In this document: piece after piece, positions 414 through 8,036 of the stretch
Layout: every line of letters starts with the position of its first letter
Position numbering within the stretch: position 1 is the first letter of the stretch
The notes under the pieces: model-generated
Told to the model about the DNA's origin: nothing
Seen by the model: only the letters and a program-made list of their open reading frames with translations
Database searches by the model: none
From: Candidatus Nitrosopumilus sp.
Lineage (GTDB): Archaea > Thermoproteota > Nitrososphaeria > Nitrososphaerales > Nitrosopumilaceae
Length of the DNA: 45,074 bases
Direction: 5' to 3'
Assembly (NCBI GenBank): GCA_018263505.1
Contig: JAANXA010000004.1
Coordinates: forward strand, 1-45,074
Position numbers and translations under genes: made by a program

Positions 414-1982
414 TTGAAAAGTTTCATTTTATTTTCTGTTTTATTCTTTACAGCATTTTTTGTATTTGACAGTGTTCATGATAATGCATACGGTCATGGA
501 GTTGGAAGTGAAATATTTCCTCCTGTGGAATTAAATGGAAAACAGGTTGCTTTAGAAGTCTCATCTTCACAAAATGATCCTGAAACTAGTGATGATCAAC
601 AAATATCAATTTCATTAATTGATTTTGATTCAAAAATAACTTTACGTGATGTAACCTTTCTAATAACTTCTCATCGTGGTGATACATTTTTGTTTGAAAA
701 AGAATTCAAAGCAGATAATGGATTTGTTGTTTTTAATTTTATTTCAAAAGACACTGATTCAGTAATTATTGAAGAACAAAATGATTCAAATCTATTTGGT
801 TCATTGCTCGGACTTGATAGTAGATTAGTTAATGTTTCAGGACCAAAACTAAGTGAAGGTGGATTATACAAATTGGATATTAGTATAATTACAGCTGAAG
901 GATATTCCAAAAAATTTGATGATCCATTAATTTTCAATGCTGGTATATCTATTGCTCAAACAACAAGACACAATATTGTTGATCCAAATTTTGGGGAACA
1001 ATACATAGATGTTGTAACATTTTATGACGAAATCAGTGACTTTCAATATGATAGTTCCACCAAAGAAACTTCTTTTTTCATGCCTTTTGAGTGGACTCAG
1101 ACAAATATTGATCAAACATCTGTAGTTCATGAAGAACTAATAATTCCAGAATCATTTGGAGATATGCTAGTTTCAGGATTTACAATATATGTTAATGATT
1201 TACAATTATCTGATGATATTGTAACAATTGATGATTTTTTCTCAGAACAACGAACTGTTCATTTTATAATTTATCAAAAAGAATTACAGAGAATTTTTGA
1301 TACCAATTCTAATCAAAATGGAATGAATTTTGTAATTACACCTGATAGAGATTATACTCATTTGAGTTCTGTTACTGAAAATGGACAGTTTAGAATTTTA
1401 GTTTCGTGGGATCCTGAAAATTTAAAATCAAATGATAAAGCAAAAATTATTTTTGATGTAACTGACATCTTTTTGAAAAATAGACCTATTGCCACACCTT
1501 ACGAATTTTCTATCACTCAAAATGAACAAGTAATTTTTGAACAAAACGGAATCAGTTCCGATTCAAAAGAGAATCCTAATGTTGCAGAATTTTTTGTTCC
1601 TAAAGACATTTCTGGTGTTATTAATTTGAATTTTAATAATTTGGATAACAATAACCTTGCAAAAACTGCAATTCCTATTGTTATAGATAGAGTGGTACCC
1701 CAAAATGATATTTCTATTCCATCCTGGATCAAAAACAATGCTGGTTGGTGGTCAAGTGATGATATCGATGATGAGACCTTTGTACGTGGAATTGAATATT
1801 TGGTAAAAAATCAAATCATTTCAACTTCATCAACTGCTCAAGGTTCAGGGTCAGGTTCTGATGAAATCCCAGCTTGGATCAAAAACAATGCAGGCTGGTG
1901 GGCAGATGGTTCCATTGATGATGAAACTTTTGTAAATGGAATTGAATATCTAGTGGAATATGGCATAATTCGAATTAACTAA
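414..1982 (+). CDS. exported protein with two C-terminal PxWIKNNAGWW repeat domains
   Basis: ORF track starts at 321, but the TTG at 414 gives LKSFILFSVLFFTAFFVFDS..., a signal peptide-like start just after the preceding gene; two C-terminal copies of IPxWIKNNAGWW...DDETFVxGIEYLV. Confidence 0.75.
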   Translation: MKSFILFSVLFFTAFFVFDSVHDNAYGHGVGSEIFPPVELNGKQVALEVSSSQNDPETSDDQQISISLIDFDSKITLRDVTFLITSHRGDTFLFEKEFKADNGFVVFNFISKDTDSVIIEEQNDSNLFGSLLGLDSRLVNVSGPKLSEGGLYKLDISIITAEGYSKKFDDPLIFNAGISIAQTTRHNIVDPNFGEQYIDVVTFYDEISDFQYDSSTKETSFFMPFEWTQTNIDQTSVVHEELIIPESFGDMLVSGFTIYVNDLQLSDDIVTIDDFFSEQRTVHFIIYQKELQRIFDTNSNQNGMNFVITPDRDYTHLSSVTENGQFRILVSWDPENLKSNDKAKIIFDVTDIFLKNRPIATPYEFSITQNEQVIFEQNGISSDSKENPNVAEFFVPKDISGVINLNFNNLDNNNLAKTAIPIVIDRVVPQNDISIPSWIKNNAGWWSSDDIDDETFVRGIEYLVKNQIISTSSTAQGSGSGSDEIPAWIKNNAGWWADGSIDDETFVNGIEYLVEYGIIRIN

Positions 1983-2290
1983 TCTTCATCAACATAGTCA
2001 TCTTCTTCAAGTATCTGATTTGCTATTTTGTCAACTTCACTTTCTTCATCATCTTCAATCCCCAAAATCTCTTCAAGATACTCTTTTGCCTCATTGATGT
2101 TATCAAGAAAATACTGAGCGATGTCAGGATAATTCTCAAATGTATCTTCTGCACCGCTAGTAATATTTCCCCTTCCTCCAATGTCTTGCTCCATTACATC
2201 TTTGCCATCGGTAAAGTCAACGTCTCTGTATAGTGCTTCTTCGTTCAAACGTGTTCCACAACACGGACATCTTGCTCGAATTTTTAACAT
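1979..2290 (-). CDS. acidic protein with N-terminal CPCCGT zinc-binding knuckle
   Basis: MLKIRARCPCCGTRLNEE... with very acidic C-terminus; palindrome and AT-rich promoter directly upstream. Confidence 0.6.
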   Translation of the reverse strand: MLKIRARCPCCGTRLNEEALYRDVDFTDGKDVMEQDIGGRGNITSGAEDTFENYPDIAQYFLDNINEAKEYLEEILGIEDDEESEVDKIANQILEEDDYVDED

Positions 2291-2301
2291 TATTTAGTAT
2301 A

Positions 2302-2319
2302 ATTTAGGCATGCCTAAAT
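2302..2319. promoter_or_regulatory. perfect 18-bp palindrome ATTTAGGCATGCCTAAAT upstream of the minus-strand zinc-knuckle gene
   Basis: Read directly; 12 bp upstream of the ATG at 2290. Confidence 0.5.
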
Positions 2320-2328
2320 CCTTTTTGT

Positions 2329-2505
2329 GATTCTATTTGAACAAATGAACAATCATTTGAACGATTTTGATTCTATTTGAACAAAAATACACTTGGTTTG
2401 AACGATTTTGATTCTATTTGAACAAAAATACACTTGGTTTGAACGATTTTGATTCTATTTGAACAAAAATACACTTGGTTTGAACGATTTTGGTTTTACT
2501 TGAAT
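2329..2505 (+). repeat. about 41-bp tandem repeat array composed of TTTGAAC-type motifs every 20-21 bp
   Basis: GATTCTATTTGAAC starts at 2329, 2369, 2410, 2451; TTTGAAC at 2336, 2356, 2376, 2397, 2417, 2438, 2458, 2479, plus degenerate CTTGAAT at 2499. Confidence 0.9.
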
Positions 2506-2620
2506 GATTTGGAAAATCACTGAAATCATGTCAATATTATCACATTTACCTTATTTTTGAATCAAATTTTGAAAAAAAATTGGAGGTTGACTTAAAATCT
2601 TCAAACGACTATGATTTGTA

Positions 2621-3898
2621 TTGCCAACAGAAATTACAGAAAAAACAAAATCTGAAATCATTTACTATCTACTTTCAGGGTATAGTTATTCTGAAATCAT
2701 TGATTCAATTAAAACATCAAAGGGTACTATCACAAAAGTTGTACAAGAGTTAGACCTGATTCATGGAAAAAATAACATTGATTTGTTACTATCATTTGCA
2801 AAATCTCTCAAAAAAGAACAACTAACACCTCCTCAAACATTAATTGGCATTAGAATCCATTCCATCTTAAAATCATTGAATTGCAATGAGGAATATGTCC
2901 AAGAATTTTTAGATAAAATAGTATCTAAATGCAAATCTCAAAATCTTTCCCCCGATGATTTAGTGAGATATTCAACAATGCTCTTTGAGTTATCCCAATT
3001 AACAGATATTCCATTAGAAAAACTAGAGAGTCATAATTCCTCATTAATTCAAAAAAACAAATCACTTAATGATTCCATTATACAATTAAACAAAGAGAAA
3101 AAAGAAGTAAAGAAAAGACTAGATGATGCATTACACCATGAAAATACAACTATTCAATCATTAAATGAATTCAGTAATATCAAAAAAAGACTAGGGGAGT
3201 TTAACATAGACATTGGTGATTTGGATTTACTTGTATCAATGTTAAAGGAATCATCCAGATTAGACTTTGATCCTCACAAAGTGATACAATACATCAAAAA
3301 AGAATCCTCCTTTGAGACTCGAATTGATTTATTACAAAAAGACATTGATAAAATGGATAATACTGTACAACAAAAACAAAACGAATTGACTAGAATTCAA
3401 AGTGATATTGATGAGTTAAAACTACAAAAAGAACAATTGATATCACAAAATGATTCTTTACAGGAACAAATCAAATTCTCAAAAGATACTACACTATCTA
3501 CCATCACTAAAATCAAAGATTCTTCTGTATCTGCCATTGATTTGTCTGCAAAAGCAGCAAAAGATTCCATTGTATCAACTAATGATACTGCTCAAAAAGA
3601 GATGAAAATCATTACTGATACTGCAAAAAGTAACTTTGAAGAAATTACAACAGACTTTGAATCACTACTATCCAAGGTATCTCAAGCATCAACTGAAATT
3701 GGAAAGATGCAGGCATTAATACCGCTATATCTGATGATCACACAACTCAAAGGAGACACAATTCCTGTGTACATCAGTTTGCTATCCATGTTTGATTCAT
3801 TACTAATTTGGGAAAAAACTCATCATGCACCAATTGGAGTGGTGAATCATATCAATTATTTACAGAATATTTTACGAGAATATCTTGCAAAGCAATAA
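2621..3898 (+). CDS. HTH domain + long coiled-coil protein
   Basis: N-terminal KTKSEIIYYLLSGYSYSEIIDSIKTSKGTITKVVQEL looks like an HTH; central heptad-rich LQKDIDKMDNTVQQKQNELTRIQSDIDELKLQKEQL. TTG start. Confidence 0.65.
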   Translation: MPTEITEKTKSEIIYYLLSGYSYSEIIDSIKTSKGTITKVVQELDLIHGKNNIDLLLSFAKSLKKEQLTPPQTLIGIRIHSILKSLNCNEEYVQEFLDKIVSKCKSQNLSPDDLVRYSTMLFELSQLTDIPLEKLESHNSSLIQKNKSLNDSIIQLNKEKKEVKKRLDDALHHENTTIQSLNEFSNIKKRLGEFNIDIGDLDLLVSMLKESSRLDFDPHKVIQYIKKESSFETRIDLLQKDIDKMDNTVQQKQNELTRIQSDIDELKLQKEQLISQNDSLQEQIKFSKDTTLSTITKIKDSSVSAIDLSAKAAKDSIVSTNDTAQKEMKIITDTAKSNFEEITTDFESLLSKVSQASTEIGKMQALIPLYLMITQLKGDTIPVYISLLSMFDSLLIWEKTHHAPIGVVNHINYLQNILREYLAKQ

Positions 3899-4283
3899 TT
3901 CTGTAGATGAATTGATTCATCTTGCAAATGATGCTAATACTACTCTAACTCAAAATGCAAGAAAAATAGTTTTAGATATTTTGCATCAAGGTACTACATC
4001 TAACACCAGTAATCTGGATAAAATTTTATCACTTGGGAAATATTTTGGTGATGAAACAATTAAACAAATCGGAACTAACAAGGTTCATCAAATCACTCAA
4101 AATGAACAAAAAAGCAAAGAACTATCTGATAAAGTATCTCAATGTATCTCAAAAATTAACCAAATGTCATATGATTCATTGATTATAGTACTTGAGCAAT
4201 ACTCTATTGGAGGAGTGGAATCTGCAACAAACTACATTCAGACTGATACAAGAATAATTAAAACAAAAAGAATCACTGGTTAA
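3885..4283 (+). CDS. hypothetical protein translationally coupled to the HTH/coiled-coil gene
   Basis: 132-aa ORF overlapping the upstream gene by 14 nt; TTG start. Confidence 0.5.
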   Translation: MQSNNSVDELIHLANDANTTLTQNARKIVLDILHQGTTSNTSNLDKILSLGKYFGDETIKQIGTNKVHQITQNEQKSKELSDKVSQCISKINQMSYDSLIIVLEQYSIGGVESATNYIQTDTRIIKTKRITG

Positions 4284-4390
4284 AACTTTCATTTCATTGC
4301 GATAACTACAACTGTTACATGTACGTGTGGAATGGGTGTATCTGCATCCAATAATCTTATTATACAAATTTCAATGATTAAACATAACTA

Positions 4391-5170
4391 ATGTTTCCAT
4401 TACGTGATGAAAATCCTCATCCCCCTGGGTTTAAACCAAAAGTAACAATTGCATTAATAATTGTAAATGCAGTTGTATTTCTAATACAAGCAGTATATAC
4501 TGGACAAATACTTGATTTTACAAACCCAAATGCATTTACAATGTTTTACAATTGGGGTGCTGTTCCAAATTGTGTAACTGGAGCTACTGGTTCATTAATT
4601 GATTTTGGTGCAGGTGCAGTACAACTTGATTGTCCATCAGTCCCATACGTATCTCTACTTAGTTCTATTTTCATGCATGGTGGATTACTTCACTTTGCAG
4701 GTAACATGTGGTTTTTGTGGATTTTTGGTGATAACATTGAACAAAAGTTTGGTAAACTAAAATTTCTAGGAATTTATTTAATTTGGGGAATTCTTGCAGG
4801 ACTAGTTCACATTCTTGGTGATACTTCAAGTGTAATTCCTGCAGTTGGAGCATCAGGAGCTATTTCTGGAGTATTGGGTGCATATTTGGTAATTTTTCCA
4901 AGAGCTCGAATTCAAACTTTCATGATGTTGGGATTCTTTTGGAGAATGATGCATATTCAAGCACGTTGGTTCTTACCATTTTGGTTAGTTTTCCAAAACT
5001 TACTCCCATTGTTTACTAGTGGATTTGGAGTTGCAGGTGGTGGAGTAGCATATTTGGCACATATTGGTGGATTTGCAATTGGTTTGGCGACTGGATATTT
5101 GTACAAAAAAACACACAGTTCTGATTTTACATATGGTACTAGGTATGGGTACAGATCAGATTACCGATAA
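4391..5170 (+). CDS. rhomboid family intramembrane serine protease
   Basis: HGGLLHFAGNMWFLWIFGDNIE and GASGAISGVLGAYLVIFPRARI: rhomboid GxSG and HxxxN motifs, multi-pass. Confidence 0.9.
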   Translation: MFPLRDENPHPPGFKPKVTIALIIVNAVVFLIQAVYTGQILDFTNPNAFTMFYNWGAVPNCVTGATGSLIDFGAGAVQLDCPSVPYVSLLSSIFMHGGLLHFAGNMWFLWIFGDNIEQKFGKLKFLGIYLIWGILAGLVHILGDTSSVIPAVGASGAISGVLGAYLVIFPRARIQTFMMLGFFWRMMHIQARWFLPFWLVFQNLLPLFTSGFGVAGGGVAYLAHIGGFAIGLATGYLYKKTHSSDFTYGTRYGYRSDYR

Positions 5171-5573: not shown

Positions 5574-6371
5574 ATGAAAGTTGCAGTGGTTCAATTCAAA
5601 GCATCAACTAGTAAGGAGATTAATTTACAAAAAATTATTTCATACATATCAAAAGCTGCTGCAAACCATGCAACTCTTTGTGCATTTCCAGAATTCATGA
5701 TGTTTTATACAAATTCTAAACAAACACCAAAACAACTTGCAGAACTTGCAGAAACAATTCATGGAAATTTTGTTACACAAATTGCAAAAACTGCAAAAGA
5801 AAATCATATTCAAGTTATTGGTTCATTTTATGAAAAGAGTAAAAAGAAAAATAGAGTTTATGATACTTCATTTATTATTAATGAATTTGGTAAAGTAATC
5901 TCTACGTATAGAAAAATCCATCTTTATGATGCGTTAGGTTTTAGAGAGTCTGACAAGATGGCTCCAGGCTCAAAAATCACAAAACCTGTTAACACATCAA
6001 TTGGAAAAACAGGCATGATGATTTGTTATGATTTGAGATTTCCTGAAATGTCTCGCTCTTTAGCTCTTACTGGTTCTGAAATTTTAGTTGCACCATCAGC
6101 TTGGGTGAAAGGTAATATGAAAGAAGATCATTGGATCACAATTAACAAAACACGTGCAATTGAAAATGGATGTTATGTAATCTCTCCTGATCAAGTTGGA
6201 AATATTTACTGCGGAAGAAGTTTAGTTGTTGATCCATATGGAAAAATTTTACTTGATATGAAAAAGAAACAAGGAATCAGTTATGTTACAATTAATCTAG
6301 ATAAAGTAAAACAAACGCGAAAAACTTTGCCGTTATTAAAAAATAGAAAACCTACTTCTTATTCTTTGTAG
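5574..6371 (+). CDS. carbon-nitrogen hydrolase (nitrilase superfamily)
   Basis: CAFPEFMM, KIHLYD, GMMICYDLRFPEMSR: Glu-Lys-Cys catalytic triad motifs. Confidence 0.9.
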   Translation: MKVAVVQFKASTSKEINLQKIISYISKAAANHATLCAFPEFMMFYTNSKQTPKQLAELAETIHGNFVTQIAKTAKENHIQVIGSFYEKSKKKNRVYDTSFIINEFGKVISTYRKIHLYDALGFRESDKMAPGSKITKPVNTSIGKTGMMICYDLRFPEMSRSLALTGSEILVAPSAWVKGNMKEDHWITINKTRAIENGCYVISPDQVGNIYCGRSLVVDPYGKILLDMKKKQGISYVTINLDKVKQTRKTLPLLKNRKPTSYSL

Positions 6372-6825
6372 ATTTCACTTCTCTACTTTTACAATTAAAA
6401 TTTGCACACTGCTTTGTCCATTTTTGATTCTTTGAATATCTAAAAATTATCATAGGCCATTTACAAATATCACATGGTTGTTTTGTTGCACGAAGTCTTG
6501 CCTTTTGTAAAAGTGGAGAAGATGCTTTACATCCACCATAAAAATTCGAACAACCCATGAAACGTTTTCTTGTAGTTCTTGAACGAATCACCATTAATTC
6601 ACCTAGATTACATTGTGGACATTGAACTAGTCCATTTTTTGGAGAATTAGTTCCAAGAATCATGTATTTTTTTTCTTTTGATGACCAAGAAAGATACCCA
6701 TTACTATCCAAAAATTGTATGATCTCTTTTTTGAATATGCTAGTTTTTGACTTTGAAGTTTTTACAATGTGCCTTGCAGTAATTTTTTTAATTTGAACTG
6801 TACGGAGTCTTTTTTTTGTCGGCAT
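6352..6825 (-). CDS. topoisomerase-type zinc-ribbon protein
   Basis: CPQCNLGELMVIRSRTTRKRFMGCSNFYGGCKASSPL resembles C4 topoisomerase zinc finger; second CDICKWP...C..FNC. Confidence 0.75.
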   Translation of the reverse strand: MPTKKRLRTVQIKKITARHIVKTSKSKTSIFKKEIIQFLDSNGYLSWSSKEKKYMILGTNSPKNGLVQCPQCNLGELMVIRSRTTRKRFMGCSNFYGGCKASSPLLQKARLRATKQPCDICKWPMIIFRYSKNQKWTKQCANFNCKSREVKSTKNKK

Positions 6826-6881
6826 TATCTATGGACAAATTACTAAAACGATTTTTATAGGGATTTGCATCAGCGACTTTT

Positions 6882-8036
6882 GTGGAAAAGGTTTGTGTTC
6901 TTGGTGCAGGTAGTACCAAATATGGAAAATTAGCAGATAGTATTGCTGATATTGCAACTCAGGCGTCAGTTTCAGCCATAGAAACTGCAGGAATCGATCC
7001 AAAAGAGATCAAAGCATCTTACATTTCAAATGTTTTTGGAGTTGCAGACAAACAAGTACATCTTGGACCTGTTTTAATGAGTAATTTAGGAATTTCAGAT
7101 AAACCATCATTATCAATTGAATCAGCATGTGGAAGCGGTTCTGTAGCATTTAGAGAAGCATATGCAAATGTTGCTGCAGGATTTTATGATTGTCTTGTAG
7201 TTACTGGTGTTGAAAAAGTTACTCATACTGGAACTGAATGGACAACAACTTACTTTGCATATTGTTCAGATTTCTTTTATGAAGGTCAAGCTGGTGCATC
7301 ATTTCCAGGATTGTTTGCATCAATGGCAAGAGCTTACTTGACAGAATTTGATGCAACAGAAGAAGATTTTGCTAAAGTTGCAGTAAAGAATCATGAAAAT
7401 GGTTTACTAAATCCAAAAGCTCATTTGCAAAAGAAAATTACTGTTGATGATGTTTTAAATTCTGCAGTTGTTGCTAGTCCGTTAAAACTTTATGATTGCT
7501 GTCCATTTTCAGATGGTGCAAGTTCTGTAATTTTGTGTTCTGAAAAGTTTGCAAAAGAACATGGAAATGATTACGTAGAAGTAATTGGTTCTGGTCGTGG
7601 TGGTTCACCTGCTGCATTACAAGGACGTGAACATATGACAACCATTCCTAGTACAAAGATTGCAGCACAAGCTGCATATGACATGGCAGGAATCACTGCA
7701 AAAGATATAGACTTTGCAGAAATACATGATTGTTTTACAATTGCAGAGATTGTTGACACTGAGGATTTGGGATTCTTTGAAAAAGGAAAAGGAGTTCAAG
7801 CAGTACGTGAAGATAGAACAAAATTAAATTCTGATATATCCATTAATCCATCTGGAGGTCTAAAATCTAAAGGCCACCCAATTGGAGCTACAGGTGTAGG
7901 ACAAGTAGCAGAAGTGTATGATCAATTAACTGGAAAAGCAGGTGCAAGAACTGTAAAAGATGCAAAACTTGGTTTAACTCATAATTTTGGTGCAACAGGA
8001 GCTAGTTGTGCTGTTCACGTCTTCCAAAGTGTATAA
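6882..8036 (+). CDS. thiolase-family acetyl-CoA acetyltransferase
   Basis: SIESACGSGSVAFREAY, EIHDCFTIAEI, NPSGGLKSKGHPIGATG: thiolase motifs. Confidence 0.9.
   Translation: MEKVCVLGAGSTKYGKLADSIADIATQASVSAIETAGIDPKEIKASYISNVFGVADKQVHLGPVLMSNLGISDKPSLSIESACGSGSVAFREAYANVAAGFYDCLVVTGVEKVTHTGTEWTTTYFAYCSDFFYEGQAGASFPGLFASMARAYLTEFDATEEDFAKVAVKNHENGLLNPKAHLQKKITVDDVLNSAVVASPLKLYDCCPFSDGASSVILCSEKFAKEHGNDYVEVIGSGRGGSPAALQGREHMTTIPSTKIAAQAAYDMAGITAKDIDFAEIHDCFTIAEIVDTEDLGFFEKGKGVQAVREDRTKLNSDISINPSGGLKSKGHPIGATGVGQVAEVYDQLTGKAGARTVKDAKLGLTHNFGATGASCAVHVFQSV

Follow-up and report, generated by a model that had tools for sequence, protein, structure and literature searches.

The phased array of TTTGAAC motifs at positions 2336–2505 (+ strand) of the 45,074-nucleotide stretch of Candidatus Nitrosopumilus DNA analysed here (the window) is probably a cooperative self-operator of the HTH/coiled-coil (HTH-CC) protein encoded just downstream, working like plasmid KfrA, and autoregulation would be the likeliest consequence of the predicted binding. 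The first-pass annotation had proposed that the HTH protein encoded next to the array binds it cooperatively, for either autoregulation or partition and nucleoid organisation. Recurrent upstream arrays, a reciprocal search and the covariation of motif and protein speak for the cooperative site, while the partition/nucleoid half of the proposal found no support at the window locus.

The phased array and its accessory cassette

Eight copies of TTTGAAC, at 2336, 2356, 2376, 2397, 2417, 2438, 2458 and 2479, are followed by a CTTGAAT at 2499, all nine motifs being on the + strand and separated by steps of 20, 20, 21, 20, 21, 20, 21 and 20 bp; the annotated positions, spacing and common orientation are thus fully reproduced, as is the nesting of the motifs in a tandem unit of about 41 bp (TRF: 41-bp unit × 4.3 at 2328–2504, 92% matches). 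The pattern YTTGAAY-13-YTTGAAY has five matches in the window, all inside the array (expected: 0.08; five reached in 0 of 100 shuffles), and TTTGAAC-N13/14-TTTGAAC is confined to this array within the 1.37-Mb genome (68 contigs, the window being the whole of contig C34). Further TTTGA cores lie between the TTTGAAC motifs at 2366, 2407 and 2448. Since the eleven TTTGA cores share one period of 10.2–10.25 bp (coherence 0.98), the natural unit of the array is one helical turn, with one degenerate turn, the fourth, per 41-bp unit; the resulting 10/10/21 spacing is a relative of the 9/12-bp grammar described below. The 41-bp units are nearly identical, which indicates that slippage has shaped the array and would also suit a functionless satellite or an unspecific bending or histone-phasing sequence. 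Such a reading is nevertheless extremely unlikely, because arrays go with a single gene family, in a set strand orientation, and co-vary with HTH residues (see below), and a satellite or simple tandem repeat was rejected on the grounds that the array is single in its genome and that divergent arrays in relatives (e.g., L180) keep the same words and spacing while their spacers vary.

The downstream gene (P0001; 2621–3898, + strand; 425 aa, TTG start), which encodes the proposed array binder, does combine an N-terminal HTH with a long coiled coil, as had been annotated. Its end is overlapped by the gene of a probably helical protein of 132 aa (P0002; 3885–4283, + strand), the proposed partner, and an ORF of 128–138 aa is found at the same position in those other Nitrosopumilaceae copies that have 3' flanking sequence. 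On the other side of the array, and sharing the intergenic region with it, lies the divergent gene of a small acidic CPCC (Zn-ribbon-like) protein (P0003; 1979–2290, − strand). A TATA-like word, CTTAAAAT (2591–2598, + strand), about 25 bp ahead of the TTG start, is a candidate promoter element, while a perfect 18-bp palindrome, ATTTAGGCATGCCTAAAT (2302–2319), about 20 bp ahead of P0003, is a possible second operator. Palindromes also occur at the equivalent spot ahead of a second P0003 copy (AAATACGCATGCGTATTT, 18 bp; L212, 140–157) and, in imperfect form, in genome G048 (L016, 14302–14317). Positions 1900–4400 have no Rfam match, and a sigma-70 promoter scan was uninformative, the host being archaeal. 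Farther from the array, the gene at 321–1982 is predicted to encode a surface protein whose C-terminus carries repeated IPSWIKNNAGWW modules, and similar modules are present in neighbouring genes, both in the window and in relatives.

AF2 modelling of P0001 residues 1–133 from six sequences yielded helices at residues 7–18, 23–30 and 34–48, with a mean pLDDT of 86–91 across residues 11–40, whereas the full-length single-sequence model (mean pLDDT 58.7) was too poor for use. When the N-terminal model was searched against the PDB, no fold match was obtained at E ≤ 0.001 and the resemblance to known HTH domains (e.g., of LuxR/GerE type) was loose; the PDB sequence search gave no match either. HTH-CC homologues match HTH_23 weakly, under the Pfam cut-off, and the family members tested have no Pfam match above it.

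Together, the divergent Zn-ribbon-like gene, the array, the HTH-CC gene and the overlapping helical gene form an accessory cassette at the window locus. The rhomboid gene at 4391–5170 is present in 25 of 25 genomes searched, with relatives of gene 321–1982 near it, and in the 14 genomes read, the 5 kb upstream of the rhomboid gene contain neither P0003 nor the HTH-CC gene nor P0002; at L261, in one of them, the genes flanking the cassette site are about 50 bp apart. The cassette is missing from most of the genus and from most relatives. Genome G048 carries the same cassette, with an HTH-CC protein 78% identical and its own TTTGAAC array at 20, 20, 20 and 21 bp.

P0003 itself has homologues, among 30 genomes searched, only in the window genome and in one other cassette-bearing genome. 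The second copy in the window genome (contig C24; L212, 1–130) has its own phased array, made of GTTCAAG (reverse complement CTTGAAC) at steps of 20, 21, 20 and 20 bp and running toward the contig end, beyond which a second, unassembled HTH-CC gene may lie. The linkage of P0003 to an array in both copies, and its occurrence only where the cassette occurs, would be compatible with an operator of another regulator, or mainly of the divergent Zn-ribbon-like gene, the HTH-CC gene being a mere neighbour. We hold this to be very unlikely, as in many other genomes HTH-CC genes have arrays but no P0003, the array word co-varies with HTH-CC residues and the second P0003 array runs off its contig where an HTH-CC gene may be located.

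Arrays of the HTH-CC family across Nitrososphaeria

Profile searches retrieved HTH-CC homologues from 11 of 250 genomes of the host's own family and from 62 of 400 genomes of the class, many of them in family f3; a narrower alignment search returned five Nitrososphaerales loci. Genomes of genus g24 contain about five to seven HTH-CC loci each (distinct places, counted by hand), some with internal stops. The f3 genes have ordinary chromosomal neighbours, no integrase and a gene order that is in part conserved between species. A viral, phage or plasmid carrier was rejected, since searches of IMG/VR, INPHARED and PLSDB found no relatives at the sensitivities applied.

Upstream regions were scored for repeats at lags of 10, 11 and 20–22, with p-values derived from dinucleotide shuffles. 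Among the upstream regions of 95 homologues, 34 reached p ≤ 0.01 and 52 reached p ≤ 0.05, compared with 3 and 7 of 93 distal upstream regions, 6 and 17 of 298 random chunks, and 1 and 2 of 29 other window ORFs, respectively; the lag sets were picked after the first examples had been seen, but before the controls and the reciprocal scan. About half of the homologues have no individually significant array, and some MAG contigs end inside arrays. The arrays that were to be looked for beside homologues in other genomes were thus found, with the same core, upstream of distant homologues, which makes the window array one instance of a family-wide trait, and the combination that would have told against the annotation, i.e., homologues devoid of phased repeats and the repeat scattered as a satellite, was not encountered.

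In the pooled regions, TGAC spacings have maxima at 9, 12, 20–21, 30, 33 and 42 bp, far over shuffles (59, 59 and 64 at lags of 9, 12 and 21 bp vs. 0.4–0.6), while opposite-strand GTCA spacings are strictly 11, 22, 33 and 44 bp. These peaks define two grammars: an alternating 9/12-bp one (21-bp unit), on the strand of the gene, and a strict 11-bp one, on the opposite strand. When bare DNA patterns were searched reciprocally in 20 genomes and the arrays outside the loci already collected were read, a family gene started within about 150 bp of 18 of the 40 arrays, the remaining 22 having no recognisable family gene. Of the 18, one was a known pseudogene and two had gene matches that were weak (E 0.025 and 0.039). 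Arrays adjacent to a gene are on the same strand in 33 cases and on the opposite strand in none for the 9/12 type, and on the opposite strand in 13 cases and the same strand in two for the 11-bp type; because these totals include loci fetched for carrying the gene, 18 of 40 is the fair number. Four gene-less arrays (L201–L204) resemble simple or coding repeats, and short ORFs beside two more (L167 and L185) look by eye like decayed family genes. Two related 11-bp TGAC arrays, L165 (G293; ~2357–2536, more than 15 copies) and L166 (G288; ~2050), have no recognisable family gene adjoining. At L162 (G297; ~5670–7239), an IS605-type OrfB gene lies between the array and the HTH-CC gene, so that this array was probably parted from its gene by transposon insertion.

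Of the 48 arrays scored, 27 have a TATA-like word after them, mostly 7–22 bp past the last motif, which fits regulation of the family's own promoters; the window array lies about 85 bp upstream of its putative TATA word, farther than in most relatives. Single-copy coiled-coil homologues without the HTH head occur in f32 and f37, which are other families of Thermoproteota (L216–L226). The HTH-less homologues of f32 and f37 (n = 11) have no such arrays, two of them reaching p ≤ 0.05 but neither with a TGAC/TGAAC word.

Motif–HTH covariation and the role of the array

Across 60 same-strand arrays, HTH column 21 (Tyr23 of P0001, where helix 2 begins) is the most informative about motif base 4 (MI 0.69 vs. 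0.14 for the null, z = 10.9): Arg at this column goes with TGAC in 37 of 39 cases and Tyr, Phe or Val with TGAA in nine of nine. Moreover, an aromatic residue or His at column 36 (Thr38 of P0001, in the recognition helix) tends toward TGACT/TGAAC. With relatedness handled by clustering, the Arg rule has Fisher p-values of 1.2e-5 (70%), 0.003 (50%) and 0.002 (45%), while the aromatic rule fades to p = 0.25 at 45%. Outside the data behind the rule, G598, from another family, fits it with Tyr and a TGAAC array (p = 0.005), and G595 has Tyr and two TGAAC words, with no significant array. Paralogues within one genome use different words (TGACGG, TGACCA, TGACTA and TGAACA), and this difference should confine every paralogue to its own array. 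As far as sequences can tell, the covariation of motif base 4 with a helix-2 residue supports direct recognition.

Under the proposed mechanism, each TTTGA(C/A) word would receive one HTH head, all heads lying on the same face of the DNA and in direct-repeat register, and neighbouring heads would be joined by the long coiled-coil tails, perhaps helped by the protein from the small overlapping gene. Binding would be cooperative because the tails hold neighbouring heads together. Given the position of the array, with the divergent gene on one side and the HTH-CC promoter on the other, the bound assembly would control the expression of its own operon and perhaps that of the divergent gene. A broader reading, to which we give only a rather low probability, is that of a class-wide family in which every paralogue has a private phased address and combines autoregulation with filament-like assemblies organising or retaining chromosome regions or islands.

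Another view is that the array is a centromere-like or maintenance site, on which the HTH-CC protein would build a segregation or nucleoid-organising complex of the ParR/parC, TubR/tubC or plasmid KfrA kind, autoregulation being secondary. Arrays, HTH-CC genes and small partners do occur on integrase-bearing islands, one homologue-bearing island adjoins a tRNA-Lys, and each paralogue has a word of its own, as might be expected of incompatibility groups. Furthermore, a ParA-type ATPase (AAA_31, 1.5e-28) is encoded downstream of the homologue of G143, and since an integrase also lies near the homologue of this one integrated relative, mobile relatives may have a maintenance role. The G143 island (L090, 7221–12963) consists of an integrase, an unknown gene, a small Cys-containing ORF, the HTH-CC gene, a small helical ORF and the ParA-type ATPase, and adjoins the same reductase-like gene as flanks the G040 copy. 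Around integrase-bearing islands, no attachment-site repeats of 14–15 bp or more were found. For the window array, a centromere-like site is unlikely: neither an NTPase partner nor an origin is near, the f3 copies are single and occupy ordinary sites of the chromosome, where the neighbours are conserved and no integrase is present, and, as seen above, most of the genus lacks the cassette. A search of the window genome for AAA_31 yielded contig C66 and a weak match at C34:40708, which is the sole ParA-like match on the window contig and lies 36 kb away, and no such gene between 1979 and 4283; the annotated partition or nucleoid-organising site is unsupported at this locus.

Origin signals, which the first-pass annotation had suggested looking for, amount to a local change in skew, and Cdc6/Orc1 genes are absent from the window contig but present on other contigs; a replication origin at the locus was rejected for want of Cdc6/Orc1 on the contig and of any telling GC skew. 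An iteron-type origin of an integrated element would account for direct repeats of 20–21 bp in helical phase beside the gene of a DNA-binding protein, and for homologues on integrase-bearing islands. It is barely credible, however, in view of the lack of any Rep family match in Pfam or PHROGs, the Cdc6/Orc1 genes on other contigs and the multiple stable chromosomal loci of f3 genomes.

The preferred reading, i.e., a self-operator, looks like a newly recognised system of ammonia-oxidising archaea and their relatives, in which a protein would come with its own landing strip. In the papers searched, neither a relevant archaeal precedent nor a description of the HTH-CC family was found. For this family, previously without an assigned function, the array supplies a candidate target and two spacing grammars, together with a candidate recognition rule by which Arg in helix 2 goes with TGAC and an aromatic residue or Val with TGAA. 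Our results suggest that some Nitrososphaeria keep several parallel self-recognising protein–DNA pairs per genome, and these paralogue pairs lend themselves naturally to work on orthogonal specificity and on cooperative assembly at helical pitch. They also offer a handle on self-regulation only vs. island maintenance, as KfrA aids plasmid maintenance.

Comparison with known systems

ParR/parC and TubR/tubC pair a DNA-binding protein of HTH or RHH type with a row of direct repeats beside its gene, and the window locus likewise has a direct-repeat array beside the gene of a putative DNA-binding protein. It differs from them in having no ParM/TubZ or nearby ATPase/GTPase (the profile search being for AAA_31), and the HTH-CC family in its long coiled-coil tails and multiple chromosomal copies. 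The iterons of iteron-type plasmids are direct repeats about two helical turns apart ahead of the gene of their binding protein, but P0001 is not a Rep by family search and copies of its family reside at several ordinary chromosomal sites. Among archaea, SegAB and the ParA-ParB-AspA system of pNOB8 involve proteins that bind DNA at specific sites and spread or assemble along it; unlike in these, neither an ATPase nor ParB/SegB homology was found at the window locus, and its array is made of direct repeats and is not palindromic.

KfrA of plasmid RA3 (IncU) and its IncP relatives have an N-terminal HTH head and a long coiled-coil tail, bind an operator of short direct repeats at their own promoter, in a single place in the replicon (five 9-bp repeats overlapping −35/−10, two of them inverted), and have an alpha-helical partner, KfrC, and a role in plasmid maintenance (PMC7783346). 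P0001 has no detected sequence relation to KfrA, with no KfrA_N match at E ≤ 1 for P0001 or at E ≤ 0.05 for six homologues, and its family is archaeal and often chromosomal, with a word array phased by one helical turn, upstream of the promoter and in two grammars. The likeness is one of organisation: the family is predicted to have an HTH head and a long alpha-helical coiled-coil tail, the repeated, putative operator stands, judging by position and sequence, at its own promoter and in a single place in the replicon, and the small overlapping P0002 gene recalls KfrC in its position alone.
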